Shown here in pieces: positions 41,254-49,397 of a stretch of DNA of 64,000 nt; positions within the stretch are counted from its first letter, which is position 1; each line of letters starts with the position of its first letter. The stretch covers positions 3,410,001-3,474,000 of the forward strand of contig CP116670.1 of NCBI GenBank assembly GCA_028370155.1, written 5' to 3'. The notes beneath the pieces are model-generated. The model ran no database searches, had not been told where the DNA came from, and saw nothing but the letters and a program-made list of their open reading frames with translations. Origin of the DNA: Arthrobacter sp. OVS8 (GTDB lineage: Bacteria; Actinomycetota; Actinomycetes; Actinomycetales; Micrococcaceae). The position numbers and the translations under genes were made by a program.

Positions 41254-41301
41254 CGGACGCTGATACGCGGCGCGGAAGCACCGGACAGAAAAGAGCCCAC
41301 C

Positions 41302-42111
41302 ATGAGCAGGCCCGACCGTCTAGAGATCGAGGCCGCAGGCCATGTGGGACATGTGTTCGTCTCCGCGGGCCACGCCGGCCCGCACGACGGCGGGGCGGCG
41401 CGCCCCGCCGTCGTGCTGATCCACGGGATCGGCGTCTCGCACCGCTATCTCGGCCGGCTCCACCGGCTGCTGGCGGAGTCAGCCGACACGTACTCGATCG
41501 ACCTCCCCGGCTTCGGAGCGACGCCACACCCGGAAAACACTCTCACGGTCCCGGACCACGCCACTTACATCCTTGGGGCGCTGGAGCAGCTGGGTGTCCT
41601 GGAGTTCGTGCTGGTCGGACACTCAATGGGCACCCAGTTCGCGATTGAGGCCGCACTTCAGCAGCCCGAGCGCGTGTCCCGTCTGGTCCTGATGGCGCCG
41701 GTGGTCGATGCGAAGCGGCGCACCGTCATGCAGCAGGCCCTCGCACTCGGCCGGGACAGCCTGTTCTTCGAAAGCCCGTCCGCCAACGCCCTCGTCTTCA
41801 CCGACTATCTCCGCTGTGGGCCCGTCTGGTACCTGAAGACCCTGCGCGTCATGATGGGCTACCCCACGGAGCAGAAGATTGCCGGAGTCGCCGCCCCGGT
41901 CCTGGTGGTGCGCGGCGCGAACGACCCTGTCGCCTCGGCTGACTGGTGCCGACGCCTTGCCTCCCACGCGGCCGAGGGGCAGCTGCTCGAAGTCGCAGGC
42001 ACCGGGCACGTCGTGCAGCACAACCGCTCCGTGGAAGTGGCGGCAGCCATCCTGGAATTTGCCGGGATCCGCCAGGACGCCGGGGAGGCCTCCCAAGGAC
42101 ACCCGGCGTGA
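41302..42111 (+). CDS. Alpha/beta hydrolase
   Basis: An intact 269-residue alpha/beta-hydrolase. Visible are VVLIHGIGVSHRYLG, IDLPGFGATPHP, the nucleophile elbow VGHSMGTQFAIEA, the acid region VVRGANDPVAS and the His in VAGTGHVVQHN. It resembles lipase/esterase or C-C hydrolases of secondary metabolism. The stop overlaps the GTG of the next hydrolase (GTGA), so the two are coupled. Confidence 0.85.
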   Translation: MSRPDRLEIEAAGHVGHVFVSAGHAGPHDGGAARPAVVLIHGIGVSHRYLGRLHRLLAESADTYSIDLPGFGATPHPENTLTVPDHATYILGALEQLGVLEFVLVGHSMGTQFAIEAALQQPERVSRLVLMAPVVDAKRRTVMQQALALGRDSLFFESPSANALVFTDYLRCGPVWYLKTLRVMMGYPTEQKIAGVAAPVLVVRGANDPVASADWCRRLASHAAEGQLLEVAGTGHVVQHNRSVEVAAAILEFAGIRQDAGEASQGHPA

Positions 42112-42832
42112 GCGGGGTGTTGAGCGGGGTGCTGCAATCCGCCCGCTGGTGGGTCCAGGACTATCTGTATGCCGCGGGCGGCAGATCCTCAGCGCCGCCT
42201 CCCGCACCAAGCCGGAGGATTTCCTCGGCGGGACCGGACGCCCCGTCGTGATGATCCCGGGAGTGTACGAGGACTGGCGCTTTATGCTGCCGCTCGCGAG
42301 GAGGCTTCATGAGGCCGGCCATCCGGTGCATGTGCTGGCGCTGCTGCGCCGGAACCGGCACGCGGTGCCCAAGACCGCGGATCTGATCGCCGGATACATC
42401 AGGGAGCGTGAACTGACGGACGCGATGATCGTCGCGCACAGCAAGGGCGGACTGATCGGCAAATTCGTGATGATGCAGCTCGATCCGGAGCGCCGGATCG
42501 CGGGCATGGTGGCGGTCTGCACGCCGTTCTCCGGATCGCGGTACGCGTCGTTCATGTTGCTGCCGAGCCTGCGCGCCTTCTCGCCCCGGAGTGCGGTGAC
42601 CATGCAGCTCGCCCGGGAGGAACGCGTCAACCAGCACATCACTTCGGTCTACGGGCGCTTTGACCCGCACATCCCTGAGGGCAGTGTGCTGCCCGGAGCC
42701 CGGAACATCCAGCTGGACACCGCGGGGCACTTCCGGATCCTGGCCGATGAGGTCACCGTCCGGACCATCCTCGACATCGCGGCCGCGCCGGAGCGCCGAG
42801 AGTTGCCGGACGTACGGCCACGGGACGGCTAG
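42108..42832 (+). CDS. Lipase-like alpha/beta hydrolase, frameshifted
   Basis: A roughly 242-residue hydrolase of the triacylglycerol-lipase-like type. After one G is added near 42183 (AGGQILSAASRTKP) the chain runs GRPVVMIPGVYEDWRFMLPLA, with the nucleophile elbow VAHSKGGLIGKFV, the YGRFDPHIP region and the His in DTAGHFRILADE. The serine sits in AHSKG instead of GHSMG, as in lipases of this type. It is coupled to the previous hydrolase and may act on the same substrate. Confidence 0.75.
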
Positions 42833-42889: not shown

Positions 42890-44926
42890 ATGTCTCTTCG
42901 CAGGCCAACTCCCGCGCCCGCGGCCTCGCCCCACGTTGCCGACGGCATACCCCGGAGCTCCTTGTCAGGGCCCTGTCCGCAACGTCCGAAATTTCGCTGA
43001 TCACGGACGCGGCGCAGAACATCCTGCACGCCAGCCGCTCCTTCAGCACCATCACCGGGTACTCGGAAGCCGAGGTGCTGGGCACTAACTGCCGGATCCT
43101 CCAGGGCCGGGCACCGCGCCGGAGGCCGCCGCGACCATCCGGGACGCGTTGGCGCGCGGGGAACAGTTCCGCGGCGACATCCTCAACTACCGCAAGGACG
43201 GATCACCGTTCTGGAACGCACTGACCATCACCCCGCTCCTGGACGAAAACGGTCAGGTCACACACTTCGTCAGCGTGCAGCGCGACATTAATGCCCGGAT
43301 GGCGCTGCACGAACAGCTCCGTTTCCAGGCCACCCACGATCAGCTGACCGGCCTGCCCAACCGTGCGGCCCTGGACGGGCACCTCGCCAGGGTGCTGGAT
43401 CCCGACGGCGGTTCCCGGCCCGCCGTCGCCGTCGGACTGATTGACCTGGACCGGTTCAAGGAAGTGAACAACTCCCTCGGCCACGAGGCCGGCGACGCCA
43501 TCCTGAAAAGCTGGGCCGCCAGGATGCAGGCGCGGCTCCAGCCGGCCGAGTTCCTCGCCCGGATGGGCGGCGACGAATTTGTGCTCGTGGTTGAAGGGGC
43601 AGGCGGGGATGACGCCGCGGCGACGTTGGGCGGCGTGCTCCGCCGGCTCGGCCGCAGTGTCGACGAACCATTTGAAGCGGGCGGGGAAACGATTTCCCTG
43701 ACCATGAGCGCGGGTTTGGCCTGCTCGCCCCGGGACGGCAACGACATGCGCACCCTGCTGCGCGGCGCCGACGCCGCCCTCAACGTGGCCAAAGCCCGAT
43801 CCGCGGGAACGCACGGCTGGTGGGAACTGGCCGGGAACGCGGCGGACGCCGAGGCGTCTCCGGCCCCCGTGCCGACGGCCGGCGCACCCGCCGGGGTGGG
43901 TGCGGCGCCCGGGCCGGCCAGCGACGTCGTTGCCTCGTACAGGGAGCAGCTGTTCGACGGCGGGCTGGAGATGTTCATGCAGCCCGTCGTGGACCTTCAC
44001 GCCGGAAGCGTCCACCTGTTCGAGTCCCTGGCCCGGCTGCGGCTGCGCGACGGCAGCCTTGTACCGCCGGCAGCCTTCCTTCCGCACCTCAGCGCGGCAG
44101 AGACGGACAGGCTGTTCAGGGTGGGACTTGATCAGGTGCTGGCCCGCCTCGCGGCCTGGGACGGGCTGGAGCTGTCCGCCAAGGTCTCCATCAACATTGC
44201 CCCGTCCAGCCTGCTGGACCCGGACTGCCCGCGTTTCGTCGAAGAAGCGCTCCGCCGGCACACGATCGCGCCGCCGCGGCTGGTCCTGGAGCTACTGGAA
44301 ACCGAAACCACGGACTGGGACCTGCTCCGGGGGCCCCTGGACCGCCTGGTCGAGCTGGGCGTCGGACTCGCCATGGATGATCTCGGCGCGGGCTACAGCA
44401 GCCTGAAGCGACTGTCCATGCTGCCCTTCACGGCGGTCAAAATCGACCGGGACATGCTCACCGGCCTGCGGACCAGCCCGCTGGAGACCCTCAGCCTGAT
44501 CGCCACCCTGGTGCAGATCGGCAGGGATTTCGACCTGTCTGTCGTGGCTGAGGGGCTCGAGGACCTCGGCATGACCGAAGCCGTGGCCGTGCTCGGAGCC
44601 CGGTACGGCCAGGGCTACCATCTAGCACGCCCGATGCCTGCCGCCGAGGTGCCCGGCTGGACGGCGGGCTTCGAATCGCGCGAATCCCCCGCCAGGTCAC
44701 CACGGCCCTCGGAGCCCTGGCCTTCCACTGGAAGTTCCTTCGCCTCGGTTCCCCGCACCCGCACCGCCTCCAGGACTGCCCTTTCACGGACTACCTGGAG
44801 TCCCGCGGCGGACGGCGGGGCGACGTCCACCGCTGGCACGCGCAGCAGCACCGGGCCGACAGCAGTTCCGGCGCCAGCCGGATGATCGTGGACTGGCTGA
44901 TCCGCGAAATCCGGCGCGGGGCTTAG
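42890..44926 (+). CDS. LOV-GGDEF-EAL protein (blue-light-type c-di-GMP enzyme), three frameshifts
   Basis: A roughly 680-residue signalling protein after one-base repairs near 42955, 43110 and 44690. Residues about 25-140 form a LOV-type PAS domain with the flavin-adduct cysteine in GTNCRILQG (Cys68) plus NYRKDG, FWN and the conserved Gln in SVQRDIN. The GGDEF domain (MGGDEFVLV, about 228-232) is intact and lacks an RxxD I-site. The EAL-type domain has ESL for EAL, a conserved MDDLGAGYSSLKRL, VKIDR and VVAEGLE. A further 75 residues with HPH, DCPF and HRWHAQQH resemble a Cys/His metal-binding extension. Confidence 0.8.
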
Positions 44927-45692
44927 ACGTCGAAGTGCGTCCTGGCCGCCCCTTGCCCAGTGATTCCACGACGCCGGCGGCCACCACATGCAGCTTGATG
45001 TTGCGCGCGCTGGACGCGGCCTTGAGGAGCTCAAAGGCCTCGTCCTGGCTGCAGCGGTTCTGCGCCATGATGATGCCCACCGCGACGTCGATGCCGGTCC
45101 GTGTCTCCAGGGTGGCCCTGAGGTTCGCGGCCGTGTCGCTGTAGTTCGCGAAACGCACGGCGAGGCGCAGCGCCATGGACGTTTGGCTCACGAAGTTCCG
45201 GGCCAGGTCCATCGCCCTGCCGTCGAACCGGCCGGACCGGTGCGAGTACAGGTTGAGCGCCGCACGGGTGTCGCCGTCCAGCAGGAACGGAAGGGCCAGA
45301 ATCGAACGGACGCCGTGGCCCCGGACGGTGGCGGCGTATTGCGGCCAGCGTCCGCAATCCTCAAGGTCGCGGATATGAACCGTTTCCTGTTCCCGGGAGG
45401 CCGTCACGCACGGGCCGTCGCCGAAGGTGTACTGGATTTCGTCCATGGCCTGGGCGGCCGGGCTGCTGCTGGCCACCGTCGCGGCTTTGCGGTGCCGGAA
45501 GAGCGTGATCCCGCAGAGGATTTCGTCACCGGGCTCCGAGAGGCTGCCGGCGGATACGCGCGCCAGTTCGCCCAGGAACTCCTCTACGTCGGAGCTGCTG
45601 AGCACCAGTTCATTGAAGTGCTGATTGGTTGATGTTGCGTCTGTGTAAGCTGCGGTTGATTCGCTAACCACTGTCTCGTCGTGCCGTTTCAC
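44923..45692 (-). CDS. GAF-ANTAR transcription antitermination regulator, frameshifted at 3' end
   Basis: A roughly 255-residue GAF plus ANTAR protein. The GAF part holds GDGPCVTASREQETVHIRDL and HGVRSILALPFLLDGDTRAALNLY. The ANTAR helices end GIDVAVGIIMAQNRCSQDEAFELLKAAS. ANTAR domains bind paired RNA hairpins and prevent termination. As sequenced the frame runs past its end; one G near 44955 restores the terminal RTHFDV and a TAA at 44923-44925. Its stop overlaps the LOV-EAL stop. It starts at 45692. Confidence 0.8.
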
Positions 45693-45893
45693 TCAGGTCA
45701 AAACGATCCGGACGGGCCACCGACGTGCGGGAAGCTGCAACGGCGGGCGGCCGGATCGAAGAACAATCCAACGGCCCGCTGCAGAACCGTACCGGAAAAT
45801 TATATACAGCCGTTCTGCGCCTTTCCTCACGGAACCGCCCGCTGCCAAACCGGGCATAAAGGCCCTCACGTCCGGAGGGTTCCTGACAGATAG
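45681..45893 (+). CDS. Possible small Cys/His protein in the region 45693-45987
   Basis: A 70-residue open frame with the pattern CAFPHGTARCQTGHKGPH, similar to actinobacterial small C..H..C..GH.GPH proteins. It overlaps the ANTAR gene start on the other strand by 12 bases and has no clear ribosome site. The rest of the 295-base interval before 45988 contains no clear terminator or repeat. The frame may be chance. Confidence 0.25.
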   Translation: MPFHSGQNDPDGPPTCGKLQRRAAGSKNNPTARCRTVPENYIQPFCAFPHGTARCQTGHKGPHVRRVPDR

Positions 45894-45987
45894 TGGGAGG
45901 AAGAGGCCAATCGGTCAATTTCCCAGCCCGCGGAGCGCACTCCTGGATGGAGGCCACGGCCGGCACCTCGAGTGGAAAGCCTTACCG

Positions 45988-47339
45988 ATGAGCATTTTCG
46001 AAGACAGGGTCGACGCCGGCCGGCAACTGGGCCGACGGCTCGCGGACCTGCGGGGTCAGGACATTGTGGTTCTGGGGTTGCCGCGCGGCGGCGTCCCGGT
46101 GGCCTTCGAAGTCGCCGCCGCCCTCGACGCGCCGCTGGACGTGATCGTGGTGCGGAAGCTGGGACTTCCCTACCAGCCCGAGCTTGCCATGGGCGCCATC
46201 GGGGAGGGCGGGGCCCGCGTACTGGAGGAACGCGTGCTGGCCCATGCCCGGGTCAGTGACACGGAGTTGCAGGCGGTCGAGGACCATGAACGCGCTGTCC
46301 TGGAGAACCGGGTGGCCCGGTTCCGGAAGGGCAGGACCCGGCAGGAGCTCACCGGGCGCATCGCCGTGATAGTCGACGACGGGATCGCTACCGGGTCCAC
46401 GGCCAGGGTCGCCTGCCGGGTCGCCCGGCAGCTCGGTGCCGCGAGGGTCATCCTCGCTGTTCCGGTGGCCCCCGCCGACACCCTCAGGAGCCTGACCGAG
46501 CCCGACGAAATCGTCTGCCTCGCCACCCCGCACCAGTTCTCCGCGGTGGGCTACCACTACCGCGATTTCTCGCCCACCGAGGACGACGAAGTGGTGCAGT
46601 TGCTCGACGCGGCTGCCAAGCGCCTGCGGAATTCGCAGCCGGCGCCGTGGAAGCCGTCCACGGCCGGTGCGGAGGACCCGGCGGAGGTCGACGAGGAAGT
46701 CGAGATCCCGTCGCGCGGGGTGCGGCTCCAAGGCCAGCTGCACCTGCCGGTCCCGGCCCGGGGGTGGTGCTGTTCGCGCACGGCAGCGGCAGCAGCCGCC
46801 ACAGCCCGCGGAACAGGTATGTTGCCGGGGTGCTCCAGCAGGCCGGGCTCGGCACACTGCTGCTGGATCTCCTGACCCCGGCGGAGGAACGGCACCGGGC
46901 CAACGTCTTCGACATCGAACTGCTGGCCCGCCGGCTGTCCTCAGCCACGGACTGGCTCGCCTCGCGGCAGGACACGGCCTCCTGCACCATCGGCTATTTC
47001 GGTGCCAGCACCGGTGCCGGGGCCGCGCTCTGGGCAGCCTCAGAACCAACTGCCAGGATCGATGCCGTCGTCTCCCGCGGCGGCCGCCCTGACCTAGCCG
47101 GGCCCAGGTTATCCGCCGTCCGGGCCCCCACGCTCCTGATCGTGGGCAGCTATGACTACGAAGTGCTGGAACTCAACCGCAAGGCGAAGTCCATGATGCG
47201 CTGTCCCAACCAGCTGGCCGTGGTCCAGGGCGCCACGCATCTCTTTGAAGAACCCGGCACGCTGGCGGCGGCGGCCATCCTCGCCAGGGACTGGTTCATC
47301 GACTACCTGCTGCAGGCTGACACCGAACCGCAGAGGTAG
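45988..47339 (+). CDS. Phosphoribosyltransferase-dienelactone-hydrolase fusion, frameshifted
   Basis: A roughly 450-residue two-domain protein. Domain one is a phosphoribosyltransferase fold with VVLGLPRGGVPVAFEVA and the PRPP loop IAVIVDDGIATGSTARVA. Domain two is an alpha/beta-hydrolase of the dienelactone-hydrolase type (VVLFAHGSGSSRHSPRNRYVA, nucleophile region GYFGASTGAGAALWA, acid region LIVGSYDYEVLELN, His in GATHLFEEPG). The frame breaks near 46762; one added G joins the domains. The natural substrate is unknown. It is monocistronic and convergent with the membrane gene at 47345. Confidence 0.8.
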
Positions 47340-47344
47340 GCGTG

Positions 47345-48094
47345 TCAGACCCCGTGGACCTTGTGGTTGCCGCCGGCCCGGTGGCGGAAGGCGTAGATCA
47401 GCAGTGCCACCCCGGCGAGCACCAGCAGCACAGGGACGAAAAATTCGCTGGCGGTGAGCAGCGCCGTGGACTGCAAGGCGAAGATGAGCCCCAGCACGGC
47501 CAGGACCGCGGCCGGAATCAGCGGCCACTTCATCCGTGAAGGTTCCGCTGCCGCGGTCTGACCCGGCTGACCCTGCTGGCCGGGGAAAGCTGCAGGCGGC
47601 CCCGGGCTGTGCTCGGGTCGGACGGGAACCAGGGACAGCGCCCCGAACGTGGCAGCCAGACCCAGGAACAGCACCGCGGCAACGGGCATGCCTTCCCAGG
47701 CCGGCGGGAGGGCCACGACGAGTGACAGTGTCAGCATCACCCCGCAGGGGATCAGCGCCCACCAGTTGGCGGGTTCACGCACGTACACCGCGCCGAAGCC
47801 TGCGCCCATGAACAGGAACAGAGCGGCGCCCGCCCCGTACGCCGCCGGGCCCGGCCAGAGCTGGGTGATCAGGATGACCGCCGCCAGGCCCAGAAAGACC
47901 GAGCCGGGAATGGCGGCCCACCAGTCAGCGCGGCTGCGGAAGAACACGGTCAGGAACGCGGTTCCGGCTGCCGCGAAAATGAGCGGCCACACGAGGGCCG
48001 CGCTATCGAGGATCCCGAGCAGATCCAGCAGCAACAGGACGCCGGCCGCCATCAGTGCGATGCCGGCGATGATGCTGGTTTTGGCCGAACTCAC
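47345..48094 (-). CDS. Polytopic membrane protein, conserved hypothetical
   Basis: A 249-residue protein with about seven hydrophobic segments and two WWA-type turns (RADWWAAIPGS and PANWWALIPCG) in repeated positions, suggesting internal duplication. The last pair of helices frames a Pro/Gly/Gln-rich loop. It resembles LiaI/LiaF-type membrane domains only loosely. GTG 48094 overlaps the preceding gene stop (GTGA). Confidence 0.6.
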   Translation of the reverse strand: MSSAKTSIIAGIALMAAGVLLLLDLLGILDSAALVWPLIFAAAGTAFLTVFFRSRADWWAAIPGSVFLGLAAVILITQLWPGPAAYGAGAALFLFMGAGFGAVYVREPANWWALIPCGVMLTLSLVVALPPAWEGMPVAAVLFLGLAATFGALSLVPVRPEHSPGPPAAFPGQQGQPGQTAAAEPSRMKWPLIPAAVLAVLGLIFALQSTALLTASEFFVPVLLVLAGVALLIYAFRHRAGGNHKVHGV

Positions 48095-48776
48095 GGTGTG
48101 CCTCCCTCCGCCCGGGACTTGATGCCCAGGAGCATGCGCCGTTCCATAACAAACTGCACGGGTTCCAGCAAGGGCCGGAGGATGAGTCCCACGGGCAGGG
48201 GAGCATAGTCATACCGCGTCCGGGACAGCAGCCGCGTGGTGCGCTCACCGACGGGTTCCAGCACGAACGTCCAGCCGATCTGCAGCCGCGGACCTGCGGC
48301 GGGAGCGCCGGGTGGGATGGCGCTCCCGGTGAGCGGATCCACGGTGCCGCCGAGGGCCAGCACGGAGCCGGTCACGATCTGCCGCACCGGAATCCCGACG
48401 TCGGGGCCCAGCGGAATGACGTCGCCGACGTCGAGCCTCTGGTGTTCGGGAAGGATCCGGTCGGCGCTGTGGATGCCGAGGCCGGCGGCGTTCTCCAGCA
48501 GATCGTAGCTGTACATTCCGCCGCGTCCGGCGCCCAGCTGGACGAGCCACGGCCAGACGCTCGCGGCCGGTGCGCTGATGGTGACGGCACGGGTACTCTG
48601 CATCCGCGGCGTCGGAACGAGGTCATCGCCGGGAAGCGGGCGGCGGCTTCCTGGGTGCTTGCACCCCACCGCAACAGCCGGGGCCGGACTGCCAGGACGT
48701 AGCAGGCGGCCGCTGCCGCCGCGGCAAGGCCCGCCAGGGGGCCGCGGAGCCGGAGGGATGCAGGGGCCCGGTTCAT
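48091..48776 (-). CDS. SRPBCC-type protein with N-terminal membrane anchor, frameshifted
   Basis: A roughly 228-residue protein. An N-terminal helix (GPLAGLAAAAAAACYVLAV) precedes a START/SRPBCC-like domain with RAVTISAPAASVWPWLVQLGAGRGG and the C-terminal SRTRYDYAPLPVG, typical of polyketide-cyclase/Aha1-like ligand folds. One C near 48630 restores RFPGDDLVPTP. It lies between two coupled genes in the usp-SRPBCC-membrane cluster. Confidence 0.7.
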
Positions 48777-49237
48777 CCGCCTGTCCGTGTTTTGCCCGTG
48801 TCCTCACCGACGACGAGGACCGGGCAGTGGGCATGGGCCGCGCAGGCGCCGCTGACCGACCCCATGATTTGCGCGAGGAAGCCGCCGCGGCCCCGTCGGC
48901 CGACCACCAGGAGCTGGGCGTCCCGGCTCTCCTCCACCAGGACCTTCGCCGGCGGGCCGAACTTCACGGTCCGGGTCAGTCCCTCGGGCACATCGCCGCC
49001 GAAGGCCCGGTCCAGGGACTCATCGACGAGGCGCTTCGCCGTCTCTTCCAGCTCCGTGGTGGTGGGGGAACTCTCTTCGGGCAGATGGGAGGCCAGGAAA
49101 AGATCCGAGGTGCCAAGGCAGGTGACCACCGCCAGCGGCGCGTCGAGGCTCCTGGCCAAGCGCCCGGCGAGCCGCAGCGCCGTCGTCGAGAAATCCGAAC
49201 CGTCCACACCCACGACTATCCGCTGATCAGCGTTCAT
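48773..49237 (-). CDS. Universal stress protein (UspA family)
   Basis: An intact 154-residue Usp. The start RIVVGVDGSDFSTTALRLA and the ATP-binding signature GRRGRGGFLAQIMGSVSGACAAHAHCPVLVV (GxxGxG...GS pattern) are diagnostic. It probably binds ATP and acts under starvation or oxidative stress. The stop overlaps the next gene start. Confidence 0.9.
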   Translation of the reverse strand: MNADQRIVVGVDGSDFSTTALRLAGRLARSLDAPLAVVTCLGTSDLFLASHLPEESSPTTTELEETAKRLVDESLDRAFGGDVPEGLTRTVKFGPPAKVLVEESRDAQLLVVGRRGRGGFLAQIMGSVSGACAAHAHCPVLVVGEDTGKTRTGG

Positions 49238-49397
49238 GGCCCCCAGCCTGCCCGGTCCGCCCGGCAGCGCCTAGGGCCAAAAGTCACCCGGGAAGCCGCC
49301 CGGCGCCCGGAGCGCTGGGCCTGGGGCTGTGCACCGTCCGCCGTCCCCTCTAGGGTGGAACAAACCCCGCCACACAACCCCACCCCAAGGAGTGCTG

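Follow-up and report, generated by a model that had tools for sequence, protein, structure and literature searches.

A frame-interrupted LOV-GGDEF-EAL gene of Arthrobacter sp. OVS8 with a conserved, putatively metal-binding C-terminal domain

Does a gene that is split over four frame segments encode a functional blue-light receptor, and what is the Cys/His-containing domain at the end of its product? The gene is located in a stretch of 64,000 nucleotides of the Arthrobacter sp. OVS8 genome, the whole of which is called the window here. LOV-GGDEF-EAL and GGDEF-EAL-CZB proteins are each known separately, and the new element is a conserved tail, unlisted in Pfam, on a LOV photoreceptor. Based on sequence and comparative analysis, we favor with moderate confidence a cytosolic, blue-light-regulated c-di-GMP phosphodiesterase, with a predicted metal-site tail as its second input and with frame changes that would be assembly errors. 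This reading builds on the domain content, the residue conservation, the conservation of the tail and an EAL-tail lineage shared with distant bacteria, all of which are observed.

The gene and its frame changes

The gene starts with an ATG codon (MSLRRPTP) and ends with a stop codon, both placed exactly by the translations and the window letters (Table 1). Its product contains LOV, GGDEF and EAL domains in this order, followed by the Cys/His C-terminal domain. A translation read through two of the three breaks matches the Pfam families PAS_9, GGDEF and EAL far past chance. For its final 77 residues there is no Pfam match, even when E<=10 is allowed.

Table 1 Features of the gene in window coordinates
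Feature	Position	Strand	Basis
Whole gene, LOV-GGDEF-EAL-tail, four frame segments	42890..44926	+	Translations, open-frame relatives
One-base frame change relative to L022 (first of three)	42948..42952	+	Comparison with L022
LOV (PAS_9) domain	42991..43295	+	Pfam 2.4e-21; solved LOV 6rhg 1.1e-29, 2z6d 1.6e-28
GTNCRILQG motif	43081-43107	+	Window letters
LOV adduct cysteine codon TGC	43090..43092	+	Invariant in 14/14 aligned rows
Second frame change, single base, directly after GTNCRILQG	43104..43107	+	Comparison with L022
NYRKDG	43185-43202	+	Window letters
FWN, its Asn	43215	+	Window letters
LOV Gln	43278	+	Window letters
GGDEF domain; GGDEF motif 43566-43580	43335..43802	+	Pfam 2.1e-36
EAL domain	43938..44642	+	Pfam 5.6e-45; key residues invariant in 14/14 rows
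EAL residues	E 44022, N 44193, E 44289, DD 44376-44381, K 44439, E 44550, Q 44610	+	
ESL (EAL signature variant)	44022-44030	+	Window letters
One-base frame change in the EAL-tail interval (third of three)	44686..44690	+	Comparison with L022
C-terminal four-helix tail domain	44699..44926	+	Conserved tail family; AF2 model of L022 tail, pLDDT 80.9
Tail candidate ligands	His 44726, Cys 44777, His 44837, His 44849	+	Window letters

The entire protein is encoded in a single open frame in five relatives, namely L022 from Arthrobacter sp. U41 strain DE0109 (95% identical), L021 (93%), L024 (83%), L023 (80%) and L002 (80%), the last of which looks like a near-copy of L023. Compared with L022, to which it is 94.8% identical in nucleotides over its length, the window gene has three single-base deletions, in line with the original prediction that frameshifts would hide it from automated annotation. 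The three aligned blocks contain 68 synonymous and 30 nonsynonymous differences (three and three for the tail block). The gene upstream is also interrupted, near 42179, and the 5 kb downstream (45729-49383) show nine more indels of 1-2 bases relative to L022, four of which (45729-45895) lie between long ORFs and five farther downstream. The host genome is a single contig of 4.18 Mb with a completeness estimate of 79.72%. Each frame change has a homopolymer run of 3-5 at most a few bases away, which carries little weight because the frequency of such runs at this G+C is uncontrolled.

Assembly error is the most probable source of the frame changes, judging from the presence of intact relatives at 80-95% identity, the mostly synonymous differences and the breaks in neighboring genes. 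Three frame changes within one gene would also be expected of a true pseudogene that was recently inactivated in Arthrobacter sp. OVS8. However, the similar indels in the neighboring DNA, the break near 42179 and the low completeness for a single-contig genome argue against a pseudogene, as does the synonymous excess, although a very recent pseudogene would show the same pattern. On the grounds of completeness, neighboring indels and synonymous excess, we judge inactivation to be unlikely. Given the nine indels in 45729-49383, gene calls across the window merit caution.

The surroundings of the gene are shared with L021-L024. A convergent downstream neighbor (44934-45692, minus strand), resembling by eye a GAF-ANTAR RNA-binding regulator, is kept beside the gene in these relatives. 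Two upstream genes (41254-42832, plus strand; the second broken near 42179), which by eye are alpha/beta hydrolase-like, are also found upstream of the gene in all four.

LOV sensor and c-di-GMP output

The LOV domain aligns with the solved LOV proteins 6rhg and phototropin-2 (2z6d), with the adduct cysteine, both Asn and the Gln in register. We take the Asn, Asn and Gln residues to be the flavin contacts. The GTNCRILQG signature, NYRKDG, FWN and Gln, from which a blue-light sensor had been proposed, are thus confirmed, and the cysteine is retained in the frame-corrected sequence. Residue conservation was followed in an alignment of 14 rows (A6), which includes L033, whose tail is cut by a frame break, and leaves out L002 as a near-copy of L023, L031 (two frames), L034, L036 and L048. 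The adduct cysteine (GxNCRxLQ) is invariant in all 14 rows. From these conserved residues we infer a canonical LOV sensor that binds flavin.

The EAL domain of the window is also alignable to solved EAL domains, and E379, N436, E468, D497, D498, K518, E555 and Q575 (L022 numbering) are invariant in 14/14 rows. These correspond to the catalytic and metal residues of EAL domains. The main acidic residues are therefore retained together with the ESL variant, as originally described. The GGDEF motif, likewise reported as intact, is complete in the window as well as in each of the four Arthrobacter-type rows, and is kept in Salinibacterium L034 and Paenarthrobacter aurescens. All ten Cryobacterium rows deviate from GG(D/E)EF (GGDRF in four, NGDEF in two, and GGDLF, SGDQF, KGDEY and KGDEF), and six of them are without the Glu before Phe; since some of these rows are closely related, the ten departures are not ten independent losses.

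With the EAL residues invariant and the GG(D/E)EF motif altered in every Cryobacterium copy (ten of ten), the comparison favors hydrolysis over two-way turnover, and c-di-GMP hydrolysis is most likely the conserved output. Of the light-controlled c-di-GMP turnover originally predicted, the hydrolysis side is thereby favored and the two-way part less so. Some cyclase activity may persist, because the GGDEF motif is intact in the Arthrobacter-type rows, Salinibacterium L034 and P. aurescens.

Comparison with known systems points the same way. SL2 of Synechococcus elongatus, a LOV-GGDEF-EAL protein, is reported to hydrolyze c-di-GMP in blue light (PMC8846402). SL2 shares the domain order, the canonical LOV cysteine and the EAL output with the window protein, but belongs to a different phylum and, as described there, has LOV, GGDEF and EAL only, with no Cys/His tail; this comparison is by description rather than alignment. 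LOV-GGDEF pieces of LOV-GGDEF-EAL proteins are reported to lack light-regulated synthesis, and the same study suggests the EAL domain as a possible target of light in such proteins (PMC10396304). The LOV-activated diguanylate cyclases (LadC) resemble the window protein in the helical linker coupling LOV to GGDEF, but differ in having synthesis as output and, as described there, neither EAL nor tail (PMC10396304).

A main output of light-driven c-di-GMP synthesis, with a secondary or sensory EAL domain, would fit the intact GGDEF motif in the window and all four Arthrobacter-type rows, the ability of LOV-GGDEF proteins to act as light-activated cyclases (PMC10396304) and the match to Mycetocola L048, which covers LOV-GGDEF only. 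The invariant EAL residues beside ten of ten Cryobacterium motifs off GG(D/E)EF, and the phosphodiesterase action reported for SL2 (PMC8846402), speak against it, and we consider a diguanylate cyclase improbable.

In the phosphodiesterase that we favor, blue light would produce a flavin-cysteine adduct in the LOV domain, as suggested by the conserved residues. The resulting change would pass through a helical linker to the GGDEF domain and on to the EAL domain. GGDEF may serve mainly as a coupling element, possibly with some cyclase activity in Arthrobacter-type copies, and EAL would hydrolyze c-di-GMP more strongly in light, a direction taken from SL2. This scheme predicts a fall in c-di-GMP under blue light in some actinobacteria of soil and the cryosphere. 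A protein of this kind could also be put to use as a naturally occurring phosphodiesterase under light control.

The C-terminal domain and its relation to CZB

The clustered Cys/His residues noted earlier in the C-terminal segment include a conserved His/Cys/His/His set. In 47 strong-scoring tails (set A7, matches below 1e-4), the first His is present in 38 and absent in nine, the Cys is present in all 47, and each of the two last His in 46 (HxxxH 46/47); these counts describe the strong-scoring group, because weaker tails, including some in which most ligands are missing (L145-L147, L152-L154), were left out, together with near-copies, the window copy and L033. AF2 models the L022 tail as four helices (mean pLDDT 80.9, pTM 0.70), and the model of the full-length protein is weak (pTM 0.53).

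The tail was found in at least 2 of 396 Actinomycetota genomes, one of them the window's own (17-row profile), in at least 10 of 369 genomes of the class around Thiomonas, the weakest matches of which may be chance, and in at least 15 of 148 genomes of the phylum around a Nitrospirota MAG, with up to five per genome and with one of the 15 (G934, 0.006, internal stops) probably a chance match. All three counts are lower bounds, as limited candidates were scored per genome. The tail is a conserved domain that no Pfam family covers, common to Micrococcales, Nitrospirota and Pseudomonadota. The Pfam family LRV_2 matched 1 of 17 tails weakly (0.0037), which was taken as chance. An HMM search of PDB sequences with the tail gave three chance-level matches (best 0.55), and Foldseek with the tail model gave 17 matches at E<=10, none at or below 0.001. 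VIA-align against 126 chains gave FusB (Z 5.8) and the middle domain of DosC (Z 4.7), both too low for helical bundles and not adopted. No CZB chain is listed among the Foldseek and VIA-align results.

The ligand order H..C..HxxxH, with three His and one Cys as in CZB (PF13682), is complete in the window and raises the question of whether the tail is a CZB domain. Pfam CZB has no match to the window tail at E<=10 and none in the window's own genome (0/1), and its comparison with the Thiomonas tails gives 0.03, below the cut-off. In hhalign, the tail aligned to CZB plus six EAL-CZB sequences with a score of 29.8 (Prob 63) and all four ligands in register, and to 16 CZB rows alone with a score of 21.9 (Prob 20). 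When the post-EAL linker was removed, the score was 22.9 (Prob 22), with the Cys and HxxxH aligned and the first His not. None of 200 shuffled controls reaches any of these three scores. With the ligand columns masked, the score is 10.45 versus a shuffle mean of 10.1, hence no similarity is seen beyond the ligands.

Moreover, CZB domains are described as having, at position 4 of the alpha-3 motif and three residues past the Cys, a near-universal Gly (PMC8262984). The window tail (CPFTDYL) has Thr at this position, and Gly is found in a few relatives, such as L106, L109, L144 and L151. On the EAL tree described below, the four classical EAL-CZB rows cluster with one another (100%) apart from the tail-bearing EALs. 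We do not claim membership in CZB, on four counts, namely the missing Pfam match, the absent position-4 Gly, the lack of similarity beyond the ligands and the separate tree group. The tail is best described from its sequence as CZB-like and not CZB, and may work like the CZB metal site.

EAL-CZB proteins are given as 3.4% of CZB sequences and as restricted to Proteobacteria in PMC8262984, and Acidithiobacillus is described as having PAS-GGDEF-EAL-CZB and Protoglobin-GGDEF-EAL-CZB proteins (PMC6416229). These have a His/Cys domain directly after EAL, like the window protein (PMC6416229, PMC8262984); they differ in that the four classical EAL-CZB proteins examined stand apart on the EAL tree and that Pfam CZB does not match the window tail. 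E. coli DgcZ, a CZB-GGDEF zinc and HOCl sensor, is another c-di-GMP enzyme under the control of a 3His/1Cys metal site, but its CZB governs a cyclase, with neither LOV nor EAL as described (PMC8846402, PMC8262984).

The tail probably binds metal through the conserved Cys and histidines. The same photoreceptor could instead carry a structural or dimerization tail, in which Cys/His residues would be remnants or folding aids with no part in metal or redox sensing. Such a role is suggested by the tails of L145 and L147, which are without most ligands and belong to the same EAL branch, by the first His missing in 9/47 tails and by the loss of CZB likeness in the masked profile. The retention of Cys in 47/47 and of HxxxH in 46/47 strong-scoring tails from three phyla speaks against it, with the ligand-less tails falling below the cut, and we regard a purely structural tail as somewhat unlikely. 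If the tail is a metal site, three His and one Cys would hold zinc or a similar metal, the four-helix domain would act as a second input, and metal occupancy or oxidation of the cysteine may modulate EAL. One polypeptide may thereby combine light input with metal or oxidant input. L145, L146 and L147 are EAL proteins whose tail start is alignable and whose Cys and HxxxH ligands are missing, which makes them natural metal-free versions for comparison.

EAL lineage and distribution of the gene

The EAL tree, built by a quick method, contains 94 of 131 domains, composed of 52 tail rows, four classical CZB rows and 38 of 75 others. Fifty-one of the 52 tail-bearing EALs are located on one side of a single branch (SH-aLRT 94), which spans Micrococcales, Nitrospirota and Pseudomonadota; L144 is the sole tail row outside. 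This side also holds one Thiomonas EAL with a truncated tail (L066), and L036 and L102 were scored as 'none' for the tail despite their diverged tails. The 14 Micrococcales rows group together (support 97). The gene also marks a conserved EAL-linked domain that is absent from Pfam and common to Nitrospirota and Thiomonas.

Domain gaps and LOV motifs were scanned in 20 regions chosen from genome-search matches and nine earlier loci. A LOV cysteine motif precedes GGDEF in 6/6 actinobacterial proteins scanned and in 2/23 others (L052, L200). The gap between GGDEF and EAL measures 341-369 residues in all 20 non-actinobacterial regions fetched, and Pfam identifies Protoglobin in both inserts scanned, those of L052 and L095, whereas the actinobacterial proteins are without this insert. 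We tentatively propose a distinct EAL lineage of three phyla with its own unnamed, putative metal-site tail, possibly of separate origin from CZB, which in Micrococcales would have been joined to LOV without the protoglobin-type insert to give a two-input (blue light, metal/oxidant) c-di-GMP phosphodiesterase that would also be able to spread on plasmids. In the open-licence literature, with few subscription papers covered, no paper was found that joins a LOV sensor to this EAL-tail lineage. L052 and L095 (P0010, P0011), the two with Protoglobin in the GGDEF-EAL gap, are very long proteins that carry the same tail.

Of the 36 other genomes of the genus searched, G031 alone (carrying L002) has a relative over the full length, which points to a patchy distribution of the gene. 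Cryobacterium relatives are about 46-54% identical. Among the matches listed, a relative with 46.4% identity over query 18-643 (ABM10776.1) is encoded on the conjugative plasmid pTC2 of P. aurescens TC1. The LOV Cys, GGDEF, EAL and tail H/C/HxxxH are all visible by eye in ABM10776.1, which shares these elements with the window protein and differs in its conjugative-plasmid location. With this plasmid relative in a sequenced strain and intact copies in Arthrobacter isolates such as U41 DE0109 and Leaf69, the predictions are directly testable. The pTC2 relative (L215:2908-5091) is uncharacterised and annotated merely as 'Sensory Box Protein'.
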